Of a stretch of 64,000 nt of DNA, positions 1,995 to 54,710 are shown one piece after another (positions within the stretch are counted from its first letter, which is position 1; each line of letters opens with the position of its first letter). The notes beneath the pieces were generated by a model. The model was not told the origin of the DNA. It worked only from the letters and a program-made list of their open reading frames with translations, and ran no database searches. The stretch is from Gyrodactylus bullatarudis (taxonomy: Eukaryota; Platyhelminthes; Monogenea; Gyrodactylidea; Gyrodactylidae), in the NCBI GenBank assembly GCA_012064415.1, contig SSNU01000218.1:40590-104589 (forward strand). Direction: 5' to 3'. A program made the position numbers and the translations under genes.

Positions 1995-2046
1995 AAGTGA
2001 TAAAGCTTATATTTCAATGATTCTCATCAGAATCTTACACTGGCTT
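1995..2046 (-). ncRNA. Hammerhead-like ribozyme, degenerate copy F
   Basis: On the minus strand CTGATGA (2030-2024), an 8-nt spacer and GAA (2015-2013) are kept, followed by a short stem III and an AUC cleavage triplet. Stem I (GAUU/ACUU) holds a mismatch, and the upstream strand no longer pairs well with the 8-nt spacer. The flanks, including GACAAGTGAAT at 1981, match the arms of the Penelope-type element at 23958-24897, so this is a solitary decayed terminal copy. Confidence 0.55.
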
Positions 2047-13202: not shown

Positions 13203-13960
13203 TTAAACCTTTCGGCACCAAATCAAACCATCACTACCCGCCGAACTTTGGGTTTGGCTTCCTAACCCTCGAACCTCTTCTGAGGGGAACTGCTGGTAGG
13301 ACCGAAGCTCGATCAGGTGGCGATCTTCCATAGCTGAAATGATTTCCTCTATTGCATGTTGTTCATCGACTTCCAGCTCACTTTGAATTATGTCTTCAGG
13401 TGATTCCCTATCATGAAGCACATCAGTCGGTAACTCTGTTGGCGGTATTACATACACATCCGCTTCATGTATTAAGCGCCCCTCTTCATTCCTATAGGTG
13501 GAGTCCGAATTGGGTACAATATCCTCTGGTGTCGGTATTTTCCCTTCTCTACGCACCAGCGTGAGCTCTTCCGAATTCACCGACCTGCCACTGGCTGTAG
13601 TCTTACGCCCGAAGAACACGTCCGCTGGAATGGAGCCCTGAGCACAAGGTTTGAAATTCCAGTTTTTCATAAAGGTTTTGCCGAGTTCTCTTAAGGTCAA
13701 ATCAGAATTTCTTTCAGCAAATTCTTGAAAATTTTCACAGCCATCTCAGCTCTGCCATTTGACTCATGGTGACCTGGAGGAGTATAAATCCAACTGATTT
13801 TGTTATTGGCCGCAAAACTACGAACTTTTAATGCATAACGATGTCTAACTGACTATGTCCTTGTCCATATTCGGCCACCAGAACAATTCCTTACTCCATT
13901 CTTTAAATTTTTTTTATTCCCGGATGTTTGTCATGCAGAATCTCCAAGGCTTTGTTCCTT
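13203..13960 (-). pseudogene. Gypsy integrase, C-terminal part with core deletion
   Basis: Read down the minus strand, the region first shows the end of the integrase zinc-binding segment (a frame with FWWPNMDKD near 13870). It then jumps to a segment with SNGRAEMAVK near 13755, which is the late part of the catalytic core. The DDE core between them is missing. The open frame 13700-13203 follows with PADVFFGRK, as in integrase C-terminal regions, then an acidic tail ending in LIWCRKV. Several stops and frame changes occur around 13720-13860. Integrase would join element cDNA to host DNA; this copy cannot. Confidence 0.7.
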
Positions 13961-13977
13961 AGCTTATTTGGCACAAC

Positions 13978-14983
13978 TTACTGCGACCCTTTAAGAAGCA
14001 CTCCATCTGAGATCATCAACAGCTCTTTGACACTGGAAAACGGAAGCAGATTCCTAGGAATTACCTTTGGCCAGCCATTTTTTACAAACTTTTTTAACTT
14101 CTCTAACTGCTCATCTTTCAACTCCTTTACCGCATCCAGCACTGGACTAGCTTCACTACGACATATATGGTAAATCACCTGACAAAAACAGTCCAGCTTA
14201 TTCTCTTCCTGCACGATTGTTAAACGAGAGTACAGGTCAGGAAGCACATTATCGACTCCTTTGATGAACTGGATTTCAAAGTTATATTCCTGTAACAATG
14301 CCCTCCACCTGGCCAACCTCTGATTCACTGTTTCTGTACATTGTTTGAGAAAATAAAGGTAAGTGGTCTGTTATCCGACCTGAGTGTGAACTTTCTTGAC
14401 CTCAGATATCTGTGGAACTTCGTGACCCCAAAAACTAACGCCAGTGCCTCCTTGTCTGTTACTGAATAATTCAATTCGTGAGGATTCAGCTTACGACTGA
14501 CCACATCCACCACTTCACTGTTTGAATGGAACAAAACTGCTGAGATGCCCGTAGCCGAAGCATCTGCAGCCACAAAGACCTCTCTATTCATTTGATAAGG
14601 CACTATGATACCTTTTGATATCTTCTCGATGAGGTTTTGTAAACATTCCGTGTCCTCCTCAGTCCAGAACCACTCAGATTTAGCTTTGACTCTGTCATAC
14701 AGTGAAGCCGTTTGTGAACCAAAATCCTTGCAGAATATATCATATTCACGTAAAACTGCGAGATAGCTAAGCAATTCAGACTTGTCCTTAAACCTCTGAA
14801 CCTCTTGACTTTGTCCGGATCTGGTACTAATGTCCCATTAATAATCACGAATCCCAAATATTTAACCTCATTTTGAGCAATCTGGCTTTTCTCTTGGTTA
14901 ACCACAAAGTTGTTTTTCTCCAAAATATTCCGGATTTGAGCAACTTTTTCCAAATGACCTTCTCTAGTTGGGGTGCCAATCAA
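13978..14983 (-). pseudogene. Gypsy reverse transcriptase (end) and RNase H
   Basis: The frame after about 15000 carries AYQDDILIGT, the YxDD catalytic box of the reverse transcriptase, then the thumb segment VKYLGFVI. A shifted frame (14774-14325) holds RNase H: VFVAADASATGISAVL with the first catalytic aspartate, then TDKEALALVFGVTKFHRYL, then LRSDNRPL. 14328-13978 carries the connection to integrase with RLARWRALLQEY and FIKGVDNVLPDLYSR. Three frames are used, so frameshifts have accumulated. Typical pol order for Ty3/gypsy. Confidence 0.8.
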
Positions 14984-15993
14984 AATATCGTCTTGATACG
15001 CCCTGACACCAGCAATCCCATTACGCTCGGAAAAATCGCAGGAGCCGCTGAGACACCAAACTGCAATCTATTCGAGTTAAAAAATCCCAGGTGCGTTGAC
15101 ATAGTTGTGAATTTCTGAGATTCTTCATCCAACGGTATTTGTAGGTAAGCATCCTTGAGATCCAATACAGTAAGCACTTTACAAGGACCTATGTCATACA
15201 GCAACTCTTGAATGGTGGGCATATTAAACTTTTCTGCGTCGATAATCTTATTCAATGTGACATTGAAGTCTGTGCAGAGTCTCAACGGACGACTGGAACC
15301 AATTTTCTTTATGACAGGGACTATTGGGGCTGCTACTATAGGGTTGTCTACTTTGTAAATCACTCCCTTCTTGAGCAGGAACTCAATTTCTTCCTCGACC
15401 AGTTTGAGCAAGGAATAAGGCAATTTCCTATGAGCGAAAACCATGCCTGAATAATTAGCTGAAGATTTAATCATGAAAGATGCTGTTAAACCATTATCTG
15501 CAAACTTGATTGGCATGCAGAATTTAATAACACCAACATTAACAGCATCAAAACATCCCAGTATTGGAATCCCATCTACTTTATCTGTAACTACTAAATC
15601 ACAACGTAATTCTTTATAACCGATAGTTAGCACAGTATCCCTTAGTTCTCCCTTAACAGCGATACGATTCATATTAAAATCTAACAGCGTGTGCCTGTAT
15701 GGAGAAAGCTCCAAATTTTCAACTTTTACCAAATACCTGATTGGAATGATGCTCACTTGAGAGCCTGTGTCAACAAGAAAACTAATTTCTACACCACACA
15801 CTGTTTCTCTCACATACATTAACTCTGATTTAACATTCTTTACTGAAAATACTGAATAAGAATTAACAAAGACTGGATAAGGTGACATAACTGATTTATT
15901 AGAGGAAGGACTGCGATTACTAACAGCATTGATCACTCGTCGCTCCTTTGCGAAACAGTTCTTCGTAATGTGTCCTTGGCTGGAACTGTTCAA
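14980..15993 (-). pseudogene. Gypsy protease and reverse transcriptase (start)
   Basis: A 337-codon frame. Residues about 7-13 hold SQGHITKNC, the end of a second zinc knuckle. Residues about 70-85 hold FLVDTGSQVSIIP, the aspartic protease active site. Residues about 195-330 hold reverse transcriptase motifs: a primer-side segment ending in RLCTDFNVTLN, then LTVLDLKDAYLQIPLD with the first catalytic aspartate, then FGVSAAPAIF. The frame is lost just before the YxDD box, which continues in another frame. The protease triad is intact; the element is dead for other reasons. Confidence 0.85.
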
Positions 15994-16645
15994 TCGCCTC
16001 TAAGATGGCTGGGCGAATCGCATCTGTAGCATCTCAATTGTCTTCTGGGTGCTGACTTATCATTCCCGAGCCTGTCATGAACGGGTGCCTTGAACCTAGC
16101 GATTCGATAGACAACCGGAATGTCCATGTCTCTGTCACTCTTGATTTTACTAAACGTCTCGATCTTCCTCAGCACATTGTCCAGTGTGACCTTTCCATCT
16201 TCTCTCAACTTTGCGACAAGGTCTCTGTCCTTTATACCATGCAGAAACCAATTAAGAGCCAGCTCGTCAGCCAAATTCCTTGTCTTTAATTCTCTGACCT
16301 TTGATTCCACTTCTAACAGGAAATCACTAAGGCTTTTTTCACCTTGAGTGAGCTTGAAAAAGGATCCCCACTCAATGAGAGGGTTTCTATCTGCCACATA
16401 TCTTGCAAGTACACCGCCCTTAAAATCCGGCCACGAGATGGTCGTCAACCTTTCTCTGTTGAAGATCTTAATGATCCTTTCGAGCTTGGACTTGATAAAG
16501 ACCCAACCAGATAATCGACTTTATCACCTTCTTGCAAGTTAAGGTTGGATGCTATTTGAGTCCATCTTCTCTCGAAACGATAGAAATAATCAGCAAGTTT
16601 GACATAATTTTGCGGTAGGTCAGAAATCCAATCGCATATCGCCAT
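15960..16645 (-). pseudogene. Gypsy gag with CCHC zinc knuckle
   Basis: The start is ATG at 16645-16643 (MAICDWISDLP), directly against the 5' flanking repeat. The protein continues with YFYRFERRW, then changes frame near 16448 to SWPDFKGGVLARYV and EWGSFFKLTQGEKSLSDFL, a capsid-like gag region. The nucleocapsid knuckle CYRCDSPSHLRGD follows near 16010; its last cysteine is replaced by a TGA stop, and a second knuckle is recovered in the next frame. Gag would form the particle and bind element RNA. At least one frameshift and one stop disable it. Confidence 0.75.
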
Positions 16646-21447: not shown

Positions 21448-21497
21448 GTCGGTGTCTGGTCTGAAGAGAACCGACGAAAATAAAACTTTATTCACCA
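21448..21497 (+). ncRNA. Hammerhead-like ribozyme copy D (best example)
   Basis: Order: strand X GTCGGT (21448-21453); GTC; stem I TGGT; core CTGAAGA (21461-21467); GA; strand X' ACCGAC (21470-21475); core GAA (21476-21478); stem III AATAAA/TTTATT with a 2-nt loop; C at 21493 (triplet UUC); stem I' ACCA (21494-21497). Stem I, stem III and X/X' are all perfectly paired. The core and NUH triplet are those of a hammerhead, with predicted cleavage after 21493. Stem II is not a hairpin: X' pairs with X, which lies 5' of stem I. Confidence 0.75.
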
Positions 21498-22727
21498 ATA
21501 ATCCTTCGTTCGTTCTTAGCATGACTTCGAGTCAGCAAGCTTAAAATAAAAGTGTCATCAACATATCTGATGTAAACATCAGTGTAAGAATTAATTGTTT
21601 CTGACATTTTATTTAATTCTAGCCAACCTAGTAAGATGTCTACTAAAAGAGGGCTAAGAGGTGAACCCATGACTATTCCATCTTTCTGGATGAATACTTT
21701 GTTTTGAAATGATAACGGAACGTTTGTACAACAGATCCTAATGAGATCAGTGATTTCATTACTTTGCATTTCAAAACCTTCGTGTTCATCAATGAAAGAT
21801 TTAATAACAGATAATGTCTCCTCAATAGGTATACTAGGAAAGAGCTTACATCTAATGAAATCATTTCATTTAAACCAATATTTAAATCCTTAATTCTATC
21901 TAAAACACATATTCAGCCAAATATGTATGTATTGGTTTCAATACATCAATTAACCACTTCGCTAAATTATGTTGTGGACATGACGACATATCCAAGATCA
22001 GCCTTACTGGAAACACCTCCGGAACTACATTATCAACTATTTTATGTGTCTTTGGATGTAAATACAACCTAGACATTCTAGTATGCTTTTTAGATATAAA
22101 ACCTCCAGTTTGATCAAATATATTTTCTTATCAAATAGTCCTTTTGCTATTTTGTACATATTACGCTCCATAGATTCTATTACCTTGTAATATGACGATC
22201 TATCCTGACCCGTATTTATGAATTTACTTTCGTCTGAAAGGAAATCTAACCCTGCCTTATAGTAATCTTCCTTATACATTAAAACTATCCCTATACCTTT
22301 GTCAGGTTTAGTGAGAAAAACGTTAAGTCAAAAAAAATTTGTGCAAACAATTCTTTCGTTTTCTTCAAACTTAAAAGTACATATCATAAGATAATTCAGA
22401 TCAAGTTTGGCAAAAACGTCGCTCAAAAAAGCAATATTCTCTCTCTCCTTACTGATTAAATGAAATTGATTATATTTTTGGATTAAATAGAAATATTCTT
22501 TCTCAACCCTTGAATGGGAAATTCATCTTTGCTAATTAGAGTTTTAATACTGTATACTGTATAGACTCCCAAATTCCATTCTAGGTTTAATCTGAAAAAT
22601 TTTGTGAAATCTATAAGGCTCCTGTTCAACATCTTTTTTTGAATATATAAAGGTCGTTAGAGACCCCTCTTTTTATCTATTCATGCTTATCTAGATCATT
22701 CGTAATGACATGTATTGACACAATAAT

Positions 22728-23910: not shown

Positions 23911-23974
23911 TTGAACGTTAATATTGTCATTGAAGAACGCAAAAATTTGTAATTTCTGAAGACAAGTGAATAAT

Positions 23975-24024
23975 TAGTAATAAAGCTTTTATTTCACCGG
24001 TTCTCATCAGACTCTTACACTGAC
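23975..24024 (-). ncRNA. Hammerhead-like ribozyme copy A-left
   Basis: Mirror of copy A-right. The core CTGATGA (24010-24004), 8-nt spacer and GAA (23995-23993) are intact. Strand X is GTCAGT instead of GCCGGT, which weakens its pairing with ACCGGT (one mismatch and two wobbles). Confidence 0.65.
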
Positions 24025-24247
24025 TCGATATTTATACAAAATTATTAACCGAAATGGGATCCTCTGATAGGTTCAATCACTCCCTGGATTCAGTAATGAA
24101 CAATTTTGTGATGTGGTGGGGATGGCCTGATGTATCTAAGGCATCTTTCTTCTCTTTAGGTAGTTTTGTAACGTTGATTGTCCTTTGGATAATTTTCTCT
24201 TTCTACCCGATTCGTAATAGCAGGCTTATGTTGCTGACCGGAGTCTT

Positions 24248-24815
24248 TTAATTAATAATTACAGGTTGAGAGATAATTCGATTATCAACTTCCGTTGACT
24301 TTTCTAGATTTTCACATTCTCTCTCGATTGTAGTTGTCACAGGGGCTGATTGGTTGAGTTGATTACTTTGGGACGTAGTTACAACTACTTGCTCTTCTGT
24401 TTCATTGATTGTAATCTTGTCAACTATCTGGGCCTCAGGATTCTGTGTTGAAGTGCAAATGGGGGGATCCTCGAGAATCTTAGCAACCTTTTGTAACTTT
24501 TTACGTTGTGTGAACCTTTTCTTACCAGTGATACCCAGTTTGGTCGCCAACTCCTTCTGCTTACAAAGATCAGGCTTCAACTCCCTAATGTAGTGTGACT
24601 CTGCCTTGCAAAGGACCTCTTCCCTGGTTGAACGTGAATCGCTGAGATTGGCTTGATATAATATCCTGAAGTTGTTCACATCAGCAGTGTGATTTATTGA
24701 ACTGAAGTGTTCCTGGACCGACGAACCTTTGTTTCCCGCACTATACTTGCCTTGACTGGTCTCACTGTCTGCCCAACGTAAGAAGAACCACAATTACATT
24801 TAAACAAGAATAATT
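24248..24815 (-). pseudogene. Penelope GIY-YIG endonuclease end
   Basis: The start of the domain lies near 24812-24770, frame FKCNCGSSYVGQTVRPVKA: the cysteine pair and YVG of Penelope GIY-YIG nucleases. A frame change follows, then SSVQEHFSSINHTADVNNF, TREEVLCKAESHYIRELK and PDLCKQKELATKLGITGKKR, then a long polar tail to 24248. The intact relative at 27752 has RNKEHL at the break, so a small deletion removed the R/E-H portion here. The nuclease would cut target DNA for target-primed insertion; this copy is broken. Confidence 0.75.
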
Positions 24816-24830
24816 TTGTATAAATATCGA

Positions 24831-24880
24831 GCCGGTGTAAGAGTCTGATGAGAACCGGTGAAATAAAAGCTTTATTACTA
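24831..24880 (+). ncRNA. Hammerhead-like ribozyme copy A-right
   Basis: X GCCGGT (24831-24836), GTAA, stem I GAGT, core CTGATGA (24845-24851), GA, X' ACCGGT (24854-24859), GAA (24860-24862), stem III ATAAA/TTTAT with loop AGC, T at 24876 (triplet AUU), stem I' ACTA (three pairs, fourth mismatched). X/X' forms five Watson-Crick pairs and one wobble. Confidence 0.7.
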
Positions 24881-25097
24881 ATTATTCACTTGTCTTCCAA
24901 TCCTCATAATGAATCTTTCATTAAAATCAGAATCTAATATATTTGAAGAGGTTCGGCAATATTTCCCACAAAATTTGTAATTTGTTAAAAACAGAACAGG
25001 ACTTGAAATAAATGAGAAAAATGGTTACTTTATCAAGATTGAATTTTGAAGAATTTTTAAATCGAATTTGAGAGGGAAATGGGTTTTTAAAAATAAA

Positions 25098-32316: not shown

Positions 32317-32366
32317 TGGCATGTAAGAGGCTGATGAGTATGCCTGAAATAAAGCGCTTATTCCTC
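32317..32366 (+). ncRNA. Hammerhead-like ribozyme copy E
   Basis: X GGCAT (32318-32322), GTAA, stem I GAGG, core CTGATGA (32331-32337), GT, X' ATGCC (32340-32344) plus T, GAA (32346-32348), stem III ATAA/TTAT with loop AGCGC, T at 32362 (triplet AUU), stem I' CCTC (32363-32366). Stem I GAGG/CCUC and X/X' GGCAU/AUGCC are perfect and differ in sequence from the other copies, giving compensatory changes in both helices. Confidence 0.75.
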
Positions 32367-45952: not shown

Positions 45953-46275
45953 ATTTTCGTTTGGTTCTAAACTCATAAGGAAGGTTAGAGGAAACTAGCG
46001 TAATAATTACTAATTATTTTTGTTTTCAATTATTAATCAGTGGTGAGCAGAGTTTTTCACGTTGACAACTCCCTTTCTTTCCCCCCTCCTCTGTTGAGTG
46101 CTAAAATAAAATCATGAAATGGACCAATGGAAGCCAGGGAATATTTTGCATTGTAATGGTATTTAAATGTTACCGGGGTAGAGTCTGAAGAGACCCGGCG
46201 AAATATAACGTTTATCACTCAAATATACGCTAGTTTTCTCTAACCTTCCTTATGAGTTTAGAACCAAACGAAAAT
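45953..46275 (+). mobile_element. Penelope-type terminal element C
   Basis: Inverted arms 45953-46002 and 46226-46275 (50 bp, containing TTGGTTCTAAACTCATAAGG). Between them lie GGACCAATGG, TATTTAAATG (about 46160) and ribozyme C. The right arm begins 9 nt after the predicted cleavage site. Penelope RT pieces follow at 46.7 kb. Confidence 0.65.
46172..46220 (+). ncRNA. Hammerhead-like ribozyme copy C
   Basis: X ACCGGG (46172-46177), GTA, stem I GAGT, core CTGAAGA (46185-46191), GA, X' CCCGGC (46194-46199; five pairs with X), GAA (46200-46202), stem III ATA/TAT around TAACGTT, C at 46216 (triplet AUC), stem I' ACTC (46217-46220, perfect with GAGT). Confidence 0.7.
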
Positions 46276-46689: not shown

Positions 46690-47040
46690 AAAGAAGTCAT
46701 CTAGTGATTCAGTCCTATATCGCAAAAAGTTGGCTTAGTGATTGGTCTAGGTAAGAGGATACGAAGAATAGCAAGTCCGAAGGAATGGCCGAATGAAATA
46801 GAGAACTCAAAGCTGTATCTGATTGAGAATGGTTATCCTAAGAAATTTGTAGACAAATTCATCAATATTTCAGAGAATAGAAATGAAGATGTCAGTACAG
46901 ATGAAATTGAGAAAACTAAAATTTTCATGAGACTCAAATTCAAAGGCGACGGTTTTAGTAATGACATTAGAAGAAGACTCAACGATCTCATTAATCAACA
47001 TTACAATAATATACAACTGAAAATTATCTTTTGTTACATG
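46690..47040 (+). pseudogene. Penelope reverse transcriptase fragment (late part)
   Basis: LYRKKLA then, past a stop, VIGLGKRIRRIASPKEWPNE and IENSKLYLIENGYPKKFVDK match the end of the RT at about 20.9 kb (KRIRKIASPEEWSNEIEN). The open frame runs on to 47079 across the junction with an oppositely oriented RT piece at about 47030. A 35-bp part (CTCATTAATCAACATTACAA) also occurs at about 45703. Confidence 0.7.
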
Positions 47041-47620
47041 TTCACTATAGTGTCTATGAATCAGTTTGATAATTTCTGATAACCATTTTGCTAATTCGTG
47101 CTGGGGACTTGCAGATATATCTAGTATCGGTCTCATTGGTAGGATTTCGGGTATATGTTGTGCGTCAATTTTGTGTGTTTTTGGAAGGAAATACATTCTT
47201 GACATTAAAGTATTCTTTTTTAACATCTTCGTTTTTATTCTCTGATCTATGAGTCCTCTTGAAAATAGTCTAATTGTTATTCGGTTAATCTTTTTTTCTT
47301 GTTCAGTCATGTTAAATTCATTTCTGTTAAGTTCTTGCCTTTCGAATTTGTTATTTGCAGATAAGAAATCATGACCTGCTCTTATGTAATCCTGTTTCTT
47401 CAAAATAGCTAATCCTGCGCCACTGTCTGGTTTTATGATAACTAATTCTCTGTTGTTCATCAGTTCTTTGAGTCCTTCAAAATGATGTTTCTTGAGTTTT
47501 CGATGTATAGCTTTCCTCTTTTTGTAATATTTATATATATTCATTATCTTCGATATCTGTTCTTTTAATTTATTAGATTTGTTTAATTCCCAGGCTAATT
47601 TTTCAAATTCTGATTTATCT
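47030..47620 (-). pseudogene. Penelope reverse transcriptase fragment (early part)
   Basis: Minus strand: EFEKLAWELNKSNKLKEQIS, then NNRELVIIKPDSGAGLAILK (the PDKG-like N-terminal RT motif), DYIRAGHDFLS, RMYFLPKTHKI, MRPILDISASPQHELAKWLS. Stops before the catalytic palm. It lies tail-to-tail with the plus-oriented late part of an RT, forming a rearranged inverted junction. Confidence 0.8.
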
Positions 47621-49320
47621 TCAGTTTATGTATATCAGATTCTATATGTTAAATTTAATCTCTTTGATAAATGTCATGATTTCAAAAAACAAAAAAAACT
47701 TTTAAACTAATAATTTTTCTGCTTCGTCATCAGGGTTCAAATTATTAATTAATCAAGTTTACTCAGCTGGCTTCAATTTAACCCTTTTTCAATTTAGTCA
47801 ATTTTCCTTTTTTTTGAACCTTCATAACTCTACCAGTTTGATAGGTTTTCTGGATCAATTAAAGTTTAAATTGAAGCCCACAATGTGAACGTGCTTTGGT
47901 AATATTTTTGGCCAAATAACTTGGTATCTTCATTTTGGTTTTTATAAAAATTGTGAAATAGTCTCGGCACCGAAAGGATTAAATATTTCTAACAAACTAT
48001 AAAACTACTGGGTTACATTTTTTCCGAGCATGAAAAGACTAACGTTATACATTGCCATCTTGAAATCAAGATTCAAGATTTGCCACCAAGAATTTCTCAC
48101 TTATGAAATTGATTTCTAAAAGTGGAATTTTTCATCAGGTCTGATGATATTAAAGACATTTTTCTCACCGGAAAAATTCTCTAGAATTTAGAATTTAAGT
48201 TGAATTGTATTCGAGTTCGTAAGTGCTTCTTTTCTCCGTAATCTATCAGGAGATTTATGTGGAAATGTTTAATTTTTACCAAAATTTCAAAAATTTGAAT
48301 TCAGAATTATCTTCACCACATCGGAGCTCTCAATGGAGATTTTGCAGAAAATTATAGACTCTCAACTTCATATAAATTAGCTAATATCTTGATTTAATTT
48401 AAATGATATTTTTTAATATTTAGATTTCTTGAAATAAAATGTAACTTTTATCGGTTCAAGATGCTTTCACAAATATTTTTCCTAAAATCTCCCACTAACA
48501 TCATAGAAAAACAAATTTTGACGGTCTATTCCATGATGAAATCCATATTTCTTATATGAAATGGCAGGGAACTCATTTAATGTCCAAGACATTCAGGTTT
48601 TACGTGAGTACATGGTGAGAATTCATTGAAAATTGAGCAGTGATTTGAAAAATTCAGGATTTTTAAACATGTATTGAGATTCTCAATTTGAGAAGCTCTT
48701 TCAAGACATGTCTTTATACAAAATAGTCATTAAGATAGAATTTCCTCACAATGATTGCTCTTTGCTTGAAAGGGAAATAAAAAGGATTGCATTTTTTTTA
48801 CTTGAAAAAAGATCTAAAAATGCACCAAGATTAATATTGCTCCATTTTAATGGTCGATCTCAAATTAATTAGACAAGGTCATCAAAAAGTTTCATTTTCG
48901 CATTGACAAATTTTATGTGATTATATGCAAAAGTATGCATTTTATTATCACTGAATAAAGTTTTTATGTGTTTCTCTCAAGAAACAATAGGATATGGAAT
49001 GTTAAGAAGAAACTATCTCATAACGAACACATTGTCAGATAATCTGCAAGTGTGAAAAGAATATTTATTATAAATCTAAATATATAGAGTTAGATGAGAC
49101 ATACGGAACTGAATTATTTCGTTCGCTTTGAAAATTAAATTAGATACAGATTAGAAGATAAACGACTTACAGGGAAATTCTAGGGAGTCTATTTTGATGA
49201 AATATATCTCTGATTCTTTCTCACTCAACATTCCCAATGCTTTAGTTAAATTTTGAACATAATTTTGAGTCTGAACTATTTTTATCAGGGTAATAATCTA
49301 AATGTTTATTATTCTAATCT
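47621..49320. other. No gene seen
   Basis: AT-rich; nothing recognisable. Confidence 0.3.
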
Positions 49321-50189: not shown

Positions 50190-51733
50190 GTGTTCGAAAA
50201 AATAAAATTTTTCACTTAAAAATCCCATTTTCTCAGCTATCTAGTATGCTAGAAAACTGTAACACACAACATTCGAAAGAGAGAAAAATTTACTATTAGA
50301 TCATATGAAAAGTTATATTGACAATGTATTCATAAATTCAAAAAATACAAATTTACGTTTTTTCATTCATATATAAAACGACAAAATAAAGTCTTCAGTT
50401 ATTTATAAGGCTATTTCTGATCTTGATAGATTTCCAATAGCTAAAAATGAAATTTCTTACTTTTGAACTTCGAAATTTTCGATTCTCCATATTCCATGTA
50501 CGATTGGAAATTGGTTTCACCTGATAGGAAGAGAAATTCAAAACTCTCTGCATTGCAGAAGGAACAATCTATCGAGCTCAAACAAGAGGGTTCCAATAAT
50601 TGAAGGATCGCTAAAACTCTCGGTTGTTCTTCTACTTCAATATGCAACTTGTTAAATACGAAAGTATCAGAAAAATTCAAAGAAAGAATGGGGAGAAAGG
50701 CAATCATACCAAGTAGCCTCAAAAGTAAAATTATATACGCAGCTGTAGAAAACAAAAGAATTGCTCCTCAAATAATAAAAGATAAACTTAATTTAAAAGC
50801 CAATGTACGTACAATTAAACGTTACCAAAAAATAAGTGTTATAACATCTTGTGGAAAAGCTAATAATATGGCCGATCTAAATTCTGATGATAAGTTTGCA
50901 AGAAAAAATTGGGCTGCAGTTAAGATTGCTAAGACCATTGATTTGGAAAAAATAATATTTTTATATAAAAAGAAATTCAATTTGGATGGACCTGATGGTT
51001 TAAATATCTCTTGGATTGATAGAAATCTTCCGAAACCAACCAGTGTTAAACATGGCTTTGGAGGTGCTAGTGTTATGGTCTGAGGAATTATCTCAAATAA
51101 TGGAACTGTCAATTTGAATATTGTAAATGAGAAGCTGGATTCAGTTTCATATCGGAATTTATTAAAAGACTGATTAGCTCCTTTTAAAGAGGTCATCGAA
51201 AAAACATGGGTCTTGTACTTTAGCAAGACAATGCACCTTGTCATAGATCTAAGTCGCCATTGAGTTGGTTTAATGAGCAAGAAGTTTAAATATTACCTTA
51301 GCCTGTAAAACGTCCTCATTTGAACCCCATTGAAAATATTTTAGAAATTCTAGCGCAAGAAGTTTATGCGATCGGGGAGCAATATTCTATAGGAACAGAA
51401 TTGGTCATATCAAATATAATCGAGTTGAATTTAATAGTAATTGAATCAGTAAGGAATCTGTATAAGTTTATGATGAAAAGATGTTTAAATGTTGTTTTGT
51501 GCGAAGGCAATTTCACTAAATGGATCTGAGAACTTTATTTTGTCGTTTTACATATGAATGAAAAAACGTAAATTTTTATTTTTTAATTTATGAATACATT
51601 GTTAATATAACTTTTCATATGATCTAAAAGTAATTTTTTTTCTCTTTCGAATGTTGTGTGTTACATCTTTCTATAATACTAGATAGCTGAGAAAATGGGA
51701 TTTTTAAGTGAAAACTTTTATTTTGTCGACCAC
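50190..51733 (+). mobile_element. Tc1-like transposon, full length but inactive
   Basis: TA at 50188-50189 and 51734-51735 flank inverted ends of about 210 bp. Each end carries an outer and an inner copy of CGACAAAATAAA(A/G) (the inner ones near 50380 and 51540), that is, an inverted-repeat/direct-repeat layout. Length 1544 bp is normal for Tc1. The transposase inside is interrupted. Confidence 0.85.
50570..51529 (+). pseudogene. Tc1-type transposase, broken
   Basis: Starts near 50570 in a frame before 50649. 50649-51083 carries a helix-turn-helix region (SSLKSKIIYAAVENKRIAPQ), KFNLDGPDG and HGFGGASVMV. At the first catalytic box, the usual FSDE before KKFNLDGPDG is FLYK here, so the first aspartate is lost. 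After a stop the frame gives QQDNAPCH, the second catalytic aspartate, then PHLNPIENI with the third catalytic position as E (DD34E type), ending at 51529. Stops at about 51082, 51170 and 51290. The element cannot make transposase. Confidence 0.8.
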
Positions 51734-53390: not shown

Positions 53391-54118
53391 TATTTTATCA
53401 CGATACCATTTTTTTAGATTTCACCATACAAAAATAATTTTGCTATTGAAAATCGAATGCAAAGATTCACAATTTCATATTTTCCAAGATATATTATTGG
53501 GAAGAGAACGCATCTTATTCTTCACGATAACTAAATCATATCTGATTCGAATCATCTTGTTTTTAAGCATTCTAAATCAGCCCTGGTCCTGGAACTATTG
53601 AGTATTAATATTGTGTCGAAGGAGGTGTAACCGGGAACCTGATGTTAGGCTTTCCCCATGTATATTTTTTCACGGGTTTAAAAAATATCTTTTAATCGAA
53701 TTGTCCAGCTTCTATCTTAACTCACGCCAATATTCTAGTGTAAGGAAATATTGATGTTTTTAAGACAAATTACCTCATGAGTCTCATGTTAAACTTTGAG
53801 TTCTTTTCAAATTTTAGCTTACTGTGCCTTGGAGCTAGATGATAAATAAATTTTTAAGTTGATAACTTAATTTTAAGAACAGTTGTGTCTCTTTTGTATA
53901 TGTGTGACTACTAACGACTCTATGGTCTATTAAACTCCCCATTTAGCTCTGATAGTACCCGTTGATGAATTTAAATTTATCTCTGCTTGTAATTTTCAAA
54001 ATTCGGCAGTCTGTGAGCTGAGATGTTGGGCAAAAACCGAATTTTTGAAATAAATCTCTTAAACTCTTTTTAGTTAATAAGTGATTTTAGGAAATTAATC
54101 CTCTATCAATTTTATTTT
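53391..54118. other. No gene seen
   Basis: AT-rich; nothing recognisable. Confidence 0.3.
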
Positions 54119-54174
54119 ATCATTTTGCTGCCTAATGTCTTGCATTTTGTAGGTAGAAAACGAAAATAGATTCT

Positions 54175-54227
54175 GGGTGAATATGAGCTCTTTATTTTCG
54201 TCCGTTCTCATCAGACCCTACACCGAC
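54175..54227 (-). ncRNA. Hammerhead-like ribozyme copy B-left
   Basis: Exact mirror of B-right, directed towards lower coordinates. Predicted cleavage lies between 54179 and 54178 on the minus strand. Confidence 0.7.
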
Positions 54228-54411
54228 ATGTATATTTATACAGAATATTATTCAATGATTACTGGAATAGAAACATATTTCAAAAAGAGATAGAAAGGTG
54301 TAACACCAACAGTCAGAAATCTACCCAACTAGCCCCTCCACCCTCCATCCGGTTACAAATAAATGCTCTGATTGGCCCAAAAGAACTTTACACTTATCAT
54401 TGAATATACAT

Positions 54412-54464
54412 GTCGGTGTAGGGTCTGATGAGAACGGACGAAAATAAAGAGCTCATATTCACCC
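54412..54464 (+). ncRNA. Hammerhead-like ribozyme copy B-right
   Basis: X GTCGGT (54412-54417), GTA, stem I GGGT, core CTGATGA (54425-54431), GA, X' ACGGAC (54434-54439; five of six pairs), GAA (54440-54442), stem III AATA/TATT with loop AAGAGCTCA, C at 54460 (triplet UUC), stem I' ACCC (perfect with GGGU). Confidence 0.7.
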
Positions 54465-54710
54465 AGAATCTATTTTCGTTTTCTACCTACAAAATGCAAG
54501 ACATTAGGCAGCAAAATGATAATATATTTGCGGAAATCAGGAATATCAAGCAGGACAAGAATTTTATTTTAGCTATTTTTCGTATTATGGTTTAAAAATA
54601 TATTTAGGAAATTCTCTGTCCTGATTGCTCATTCATCCTTAACTCCTTCTTCTTGACTTGAGTAATTCTGAAAGCTTGATATTTGTACATTGTGCATGAT
54701 TTTATTTGGA

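Follow-up and report, generated by a model that had tools for sequence, protein, structure and literature searches.

Hammerhead-like ribozyme candidates of Gyrodactylus bullatarudis in which an upstream strand may substitute for the stem II hairpin

The window, that is, the whole stretch of 64,000 nucleotides of Gyrodactylus bullatarudis DNA analyzed here, carries several copies of a motif that recurs in the genome and that, judged from its sequence, probably represents type I hammerheads at the ends of probable Penelope-like elements. Stem II appears to have lost its hairpin and to keep at most a single base pair (10.1-11.1), and a five-pair helix, X/X', would replace it; X lies directly upstream of stem I, and X' is what would otherwise be loop II, between nucleotides 10.1 and 11.1. 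The ribozymes perhaps act as dimers. By its core, stem I, and cleavage triplet, the motif is hammerhead-like and may work as a hammerhead, even though the defining stem II feature is absent.

In an ordinary hammerhead, stem II begins at the 10.1-11.1 pair and its loop contacts stem I; stem II and the 10.1-11.1 pair are usually counted as part of the definition. In the structure proposed here, X/X' would be stacked at position 10.1-11.1. The partner of 11.1 varies with the subfamily and is either 10.1 or the first base of X, or 11.1 has none of the two. The X/X' helix would in addition keep stems I and II next to each other and clamp stem I, a role that loop contacts or pseudoknots play in ordinary hammerheads. 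H-type pseudoknots can have a single-nucleotide linker that crosses the deep groove of a helix, and the one nucleotide that leads from 10.1 to the start of X' would suit such a crossing over five pairs. Cleavage is predicted directly after H17 (C17 in copy D, Table 1).

Copies and families of the motif

The sequence-only reading had described copy D as strand X, a stem I strand, the CUGANGA core, an 8-nt segment that includes X', GAA, stem III, and the second strand of stem I, in that order, and the coordinates of each part bear this out (Table 1). It had also claimed the same layout for copies A-right, B, C, and E; the order of the elements is indeed shared, but the X/X' helix of copy B has a mismatch (TCGGT versus the 8-mer GAACGGAC). 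The 8 nt that separate CUGANGA from GAA allow at most the 10.1-11.1 pair, in agreement with the earlier judgment that they are too few for a normal stem II. The suggestion that the base before X pairs 11.1 in copies C and E did not survive, as that base cannot pair there, whereas G10.1 can. Overall, eight CTGANGA-N8-GAAA sites occur in the window, compared with a mean of 0.30 and a maximum of 3 in 100 dinucleotide shuffles.

Table 1. Coordinates within the window of the motif copies, the parts of copy D, and neighboring element features.
Feature	Position	Strand	Remarks
Copy D, whole	21448-21497	+	layout as in the sequence-only reading
Copy D, strand X	21448-21453	+	first base 21448; pairing bases 21449-21453, partner 21470-21474
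Copy D, linker from X to stem I	21454-21456	+	
Copy D, stem I 5' strand UGGU	21457-21460	+	partner 21494-21497
Copy D, core CUGAAGA	21461-21467	+	
Copy D, 8-nt segment	21468-21475	+	G10.1 21468; A 21469; X' 21470-21474; C11.1 21475
Copy D, GAA	21476-21478	+	
Copy D, stem III	21479-21492	+	
Copy D, C17	21493	+	predicted cleavage directly 3' of it
Copy D, stem I'	21494-21497	+	
Copy A-right	24831-24880	+	
Copy A-left, inverted partner	23975-24024	-	changes present in X
Copy E	32317-32366	+	X/X' GGCAU/AUGCC
Copy C	46172-46220	+	X/X' CCGGG/CCCGG
Copy B, D-type (site 54425+)	54412-54464	+	X/X' with one mismatch; hand-set span
Inverted partner of copy B (site 54214-)	54175-54227	-	sequence identical to copy B; hand-set span
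Decayed A-type site (2030-)	2013-2044	-	8-mer GAATCATT; X to GAA
Reverse-transcriptase fragment adjoining copy D	21488-21865	-	Pfam RVT_1, E 1.5e-6, 28.5 bits, cut-off 29.6
Possible endonuclease pieces, two frames	24248-24825	-	presumably GIY-YIG-type, from the motif; no Pfam match
Penelope-RT-like frame	46870-47625	-	presumably resembles N-terminal part of Penelope RT; no Pfam match
Inverted-arm unit	23958-24897		arms 23958-24046 and 24809-24897; 89 nt, 98%; one copy per arm
Inverted-arm unit	54113-54526		arms 54113-54236 and 54403-54526; 124 nt, 99%; one copy per arm

A genome search for further copies had been proposed in the sequence-only reading; covering 77.3 Mb in 471 contigs, with all repeat counts being lower bounds, it returned at least 434 and at least 436 exact matches on the two strands (at least 870) to CTGANGAG-N7-GAAAWWAAA. 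The family F form, CTGATGA-N8-GAAAT-N4-AT-N-TGG, which has a different stem III, gave at least 430 and at least 442 matches (at least 872). Reversed-pattern controls gave none in either case, and the two sets of sites are largely disjoint. The CTGANGAG-type form with a nucleotide other than G at 10.1 matched at least 47 times (control, 3), some of these looking like chance sites by eye. A spacing of at least 9 nt between the core strings was found at least 105 times (control, 3) and was exactly 9 nt in all but seven of the matches listed; this 9-nt class, at about a hundred sites in the genome, is exemplified by the E-type copy GTATGCCAC on the minus strand of locus L095. On the minus strand of L076, near position 1302, the site GACCTGGC precedes an extended self-complementary sequence, ATGTACAATGTACATTGTACAT. 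The motif was also sought in viral contigs and in contigs from other genomes, among which genomes near the source are possibly absent, and no match was obtained.

For the analysis of families, 109 distinct CTGANGA-N8-GAA sites from loci L001-L104 plus the window were sorted by their downstream half (family E by three letters of the 8-mer), X being ignored. This yielded 73 members (A, 21; B/C, 13; D, 20; E, 13; F, 6), and 36 sites were dropped (31 unassigned and 5 doubtful). The sorter put L028, D-like by look, into family A, and L015 and L089 were retained in B/C, yet look like chance sites; likely members among the 36 dropped sites are the second L036 site, L070, L073, L085, and L097.

The X/X' helix and the partner of nucleotide 11.1

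By the evidence of covariation, the upstream strand X forms five base pairs with the 8-nt segment. As the sequence-only reading had it, the sequence of the helix differs between families and its pairing is kept. Typical X/X' sequences are TCGGT/ACCGA in family D, CCGGT/ACCGG in A, CCGGG/CCCGG in B and C, GGCAT/ATGCC in E, and CAAAG/CTTTG, TAAAG/CTTTA, TTATG/CATAA, or TGAA/TTCA in F, of which TCCTTTGA is a typical form. Among the 73 members, which were chosen without X, 78.6% of the X/X' pairs are formed, versus 54.3 ± 2.6% when X was permuted among copies (maximum among 20,000 permutations, 65.8%); the spacer in this test was taken for each family from typical copies. A separate scan varied the distance from X to CTGANGA over all spacers of 7-29 nt. 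Spacers 7 and 8 alone are conspicuous: each gives at least four of the five pairs in 30 copies, and no other spacer does so in more than nine. At spacer 7 or 8, this level of pairing is found in 57/73 members versus 10/36 of the dropped sites.

Nineteen representatives, which were hand-picked as typical after X had been seen, have 95.8% of X/X' cells paired (shuffled, 55.7%) and 39 cells changed on both sides (shuffled, 10.9), with a score of 1.10, compared with 0.285 when shuffled and no more than 0.306 when slid. Two other shuffle measures on the same representatives were uninformative (both-side-changed pairs, 304/500; further pair types, 363/500). In three F subfamilies, the exact expected X was recovered at 16 of 21 sites among the matches listed (6/9, 6/6, and 4/6, counted by place). 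F subfamilies with their X/X' were counted over the genome as at least 109 for TCAAAG/CTTTGA, at least 174 for TTTATG/CATAAA, and at least 71 for TTAAAG/CTTTAT, with no control matches, and because of these counts, single F copies can stand for subfamilies. Compensation within family D, sought at one X/X' pair, was not seen (1/7 copies with CCAAC and 1/10 with GTTGG): the partner of CCAAC is GTTGG in one copy and GTCGG in six, and that of GTTGG is CCGAC in nine. Because neutral decay of inserted copies would give such a null within D, the support for X/X' comes from the differences between families.

The partner of 11.1 is, on these sequences, flexible, being 10.1 in some families, X in others, and neither in one, because pairing differs across families B/C and E and the subfamilies TGCTTTAT and ACCATAAA. 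A pair between 10.1 and 11.1 is formed in 15/21 members of A, 10/13 of B/C, 15/20 of D, 13/13 of E, and 4/6 of F. The first base of X can pair 11.1 in 17/21 members of A, 18/20 of D, and 4/6 of F, but in 0/13 of B/C and 0/13 of E; for B/C and E together (n = 26), the comparison is 0/26 for X versus 23/26 for 10.1. By these counts, families B, C, and E retain G10.1-Y11.1 as a one-pair stem II. Twenty-four of the 73 members are from loci fetched for a non-G 10.1, and most fetching patterns fixed G10.1; outside those 24, the 10.1-11.1 pair is formed in 47/49 members (45/46 for families A-E alone) and the X-11.1 pair in 24/49, with G10.1 mostly fixed by the pattern. In the 19 hand-picked representatives, the standard 10.1-11.1 pair reaches 84%, a level that 0/500 shuffles attained. 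Among the matches listed for family F (n = 71), the 10.1/11.1 combinations are U-A in 42, A.A in 15, U.U in 12, and U-G and G.A in one each.

In the sequence-only reading, X was the strand of stem II from 11.1 onward. That part stands for subfamily ACCATAAA (A10.1, A11.1), in which the first base of X is U and is the only possible partner of 11.1 (at least 174 copies); it does not stand for B/C and E, nor for subfamily TGCTTTAT (U10.1, U11.1), in which at least 71 copies have U as the first base of X opposite U11.1 and a genome-wide search for A at that position found 0 copies. A strict model, in which X replaces the whole 5' strand of stem II, its first base pairs 11.1, and 10.1 is a linker, is therefore judged unlikely. 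Pairing in A, D, F, and ACCATAAA speaks for it, as do the six X/X' pairs in the D fold, but the zero counts in B/C and E and the U opposite U11.1 in TGCTTTAT speak against it. So does the pairing of the first base of X with 11.1 in the hand-picked representatives, which at 63% was equaled or exceeded in 46/500 shuffles. Finally, in the 9-nt E copy of L095, X' and C11.1 are parted by an additional A, and the X helix and the 10.1-11.1 pair are therefore separate there.

Core, stem I, and a possible dimer

Stem I had been said to covary, and this was confirmed: 89% of its cells are paired in the 19 representatives, versus 50 ± 6% when permuted (0/20,000 as high). Its types are UGGU/ACCA, AGGU/ACCU, GGGU/ACCC, GAGU/ACUC, CACA/UGUG, GAGG/CCUC, and ACCA/UGGU; L028 and L032 have only 2/4 pairs. 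The hammerhead-like core with its cleavage triplet was likewise recovered, as A15.1-U16.1 is present and H17 is not G in 19/19 hand-picked representatives with hand-set spans.

These findings bear on whether the motif is a ribozyme at all. X/X' could instead be a hairpin that serves an element protein or reverse transcription, the hammerhead look being due to shared ancestry, and we regard this as distinctly improbable. X/X' does fold as a plain hairpin, the search design itself makes CUGANGA and GAA invariant, and, in the available text of one study, ribozyme mutants left in vitro insertion by the Anolis Penelope element unaffected (PMC11167929). A hairpin of that kind does not, however, call for a stem I that pairs and covaries across the core, nor for an A15.1-U16.1 pair and a non-G H17 in every representative.

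The preferred reading, a hammerhead with X/X' in place of the stem II hairpin, includes a possible dimer. Stem III, the length of which was set by hand in the 19 representatives, forms a perfect palindrome of 16 nt in D2 and of 14 nt in the D copies L101 and L019, and a palindrome minus one pair in D1 and D4. A1 and B1 have a 5-pair hairpin with a triloop, L018 has 2/4 pairs, and most representatives are self-complementary. In family F, stem III is an 8-nt segment, the center of which is self-complementary (GTAC, GCGC, or ACGT) in 66/71 among the matches listed. The self-complementarity of many stem III segments could allow a joint stem III to form between two RNA copies, each of which might then cleave the other; for F, a dimer would be the natural form because an 8-nt palindrome is hardly able to fold on itself. 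X/X' would in that dimer form a simple hairpin whose loop contains CUGANGA and the stem I strand; this strand would be free to pair with the partner molecule, so that stem I would be intermolecular. Using a folding program that does not allow pseudoknots, the lowest-energy single-copy fold contains X/X' in 6/7 copies, copy E being the one without it, and when two copies were cofolded, X/X' hairpins together with a joint stem III were obtained in 3/7 (D copy L101, A, and F2) and other pairings in 4/7.

Host elements and relation to known hammerheads

A retroelement context is supported by the reverse-transcriptase fragment beside copy D, which scores just under the Pfam cut-off. The host elements are probably Penelope-like, a label that beyond the RVT_1 match draws on resemblance of motifs. 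The 89-nt inverted arms enclose the endonuclease-like pieces, and the 124-nt arms enclose 166 bases. More generally, the copies form outward-pointing inverted pairs: among the matches listed, from partly overlapping lists, 52/58 neighbors no more than 2,500 bases apart are minus-then-plus, one is plus-then-minus, and five point the same way. No Pfam domain, endonuclease included, was found in the other window frames tried, and the RT-like frame, searched as a protein, had no match at E 0.001; a PDB sequence search gave six weak matches to designed repeat proteins, which were judged to be chance. The open reading frames at 13203-16520 (minus strand) and 50604-51292 resemble a Gypsy-type retroelement and a Tc1-type transposase, respectively.

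A comparison with the Rfam hammerhead models had also been proposed, and a scan of the window found no hammerhead family, whether the threshold was the gathering score or E up to 10. Over the genome, RF00163 gave 73 matches, 29 of them over the cut-off. Loci L039-L068 (n = 30), fetched for this family, mostly belong to a single repeat, which has a normal stem II of four pairs; many of these loci share flanks that differ from those of the short-stem-II copies. Stem III of this repeat, ACGCGCGT, is also self-complementary. Its head has what we take to be a B-box look, hence a suspicion of a tRNA-like head, but ARAGORN found no tRNA in any of the 7 loci tried out of the 30, and the idea was rejected. 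It is barely credible that the short-stem-II copies are dead relics of ordinary hammerheads left after loss of stem II: some are clearly decayed (2030-, L014, and the second L084 site), normal hammerheads do exist in the same genome, and compensation is missing within family D, but a common spacing and family-specific X/X' pairing are kept by more than 1,700 copies, which make up at least five families, and the normal-stem-II hammerheads seen have other flanks.

Hammerhead function with a reduced stem II is familiar from the engineered minizymes and maxizymes; these have man-made linkers or a shared stem II and are not known to have an upstream strand X. One of the two nearest precedents, the other being the non-circular permutations discussed below, is the natural hammerhead of Perreault 2011 (PMC3088659), which in the available text has a one-base-pair stem II and a pseudoknot, cleaves fast, and tolerates U10.1-U11.1. 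Likenesses are the core, the one-pair stem II, and the pseudoknot that joins stems I and II. However, that hammerhead is type II, with loop I paired to the 3' tail that follows stem II. The Gyrodactylus motif is type I, the segment between 10.1 and 11.1 is paired by a strand from upstream of stem I, and the 10.1-11.1 pair is absent from some subfamilies.

Minimal type I hammerheads are also described from Penelope-like elements and Terminons (PMC7761336, PMC6155905, PMC11167929). With the Gyrodactylus motif they share the type I order and a retroelement neighborhood, and they may also share a weak or self-complementary stem III and the proposed dimer cleavage, which for minimal Penelope hammerheads is reported in reviews (PMC7761336). 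In the portions available, they are described as being without helix III or loop contacts, whereas the Gyrodactylus motif is without stem II; the Anolis Penelope hammerhead, as described there, has both stem II and loop II (PMC11167929). The scheme of Eckert 2023 (PMC10085705), in its available text, lists six hammerhead block orders, assumes CUGAnGA to be adjacent to its stem strands, and presupposes stem II and the 10.1-11.1 pair. Its non-circular permutations SGC, CSG, and GCS resemble the Gyrodactylus motif in having a hammerhead core, rearranged connectivity, and pseudoknots, but the latter has the C-G-S order of type I, and its moved stem II strand falls outside the block scheme. No hammerhead without stem II was found in the literature covered, which does not include Cervera and De la Pena 2014, Lunse 2017, or the Terminon paper; with the first two excepted, the earlier statement that no version with such connectivity had been described is consistent with it.

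We propose tentatively, and with rather less than even confidence, that these copies represent a natural class without a stem II hairpin, in which an H-type pseudoknot helix with one strand from upstream of stem I takes its place, and which is active chiefly as a palindromic dimer in the processing of retroelement RNA ends. If such a class exists, its connectivity would lie outside the six listed block orders, half a stem rather than a block having moved, and the A.A or U.U subfamilies would be hammerheads without a 10.1-11.1 pair. A class of well over a thousand copies with a stem II strand supplied from elsewhere would widen the definition of the hammerhead, and replacement of stem II would explain why the elements that carry it look ribozyme-free in a standard scan. 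The natural 10.1/11.1 series (G-C, G-U, U-A, U.U, and A.A) would then offer a way to ask what stem II does.
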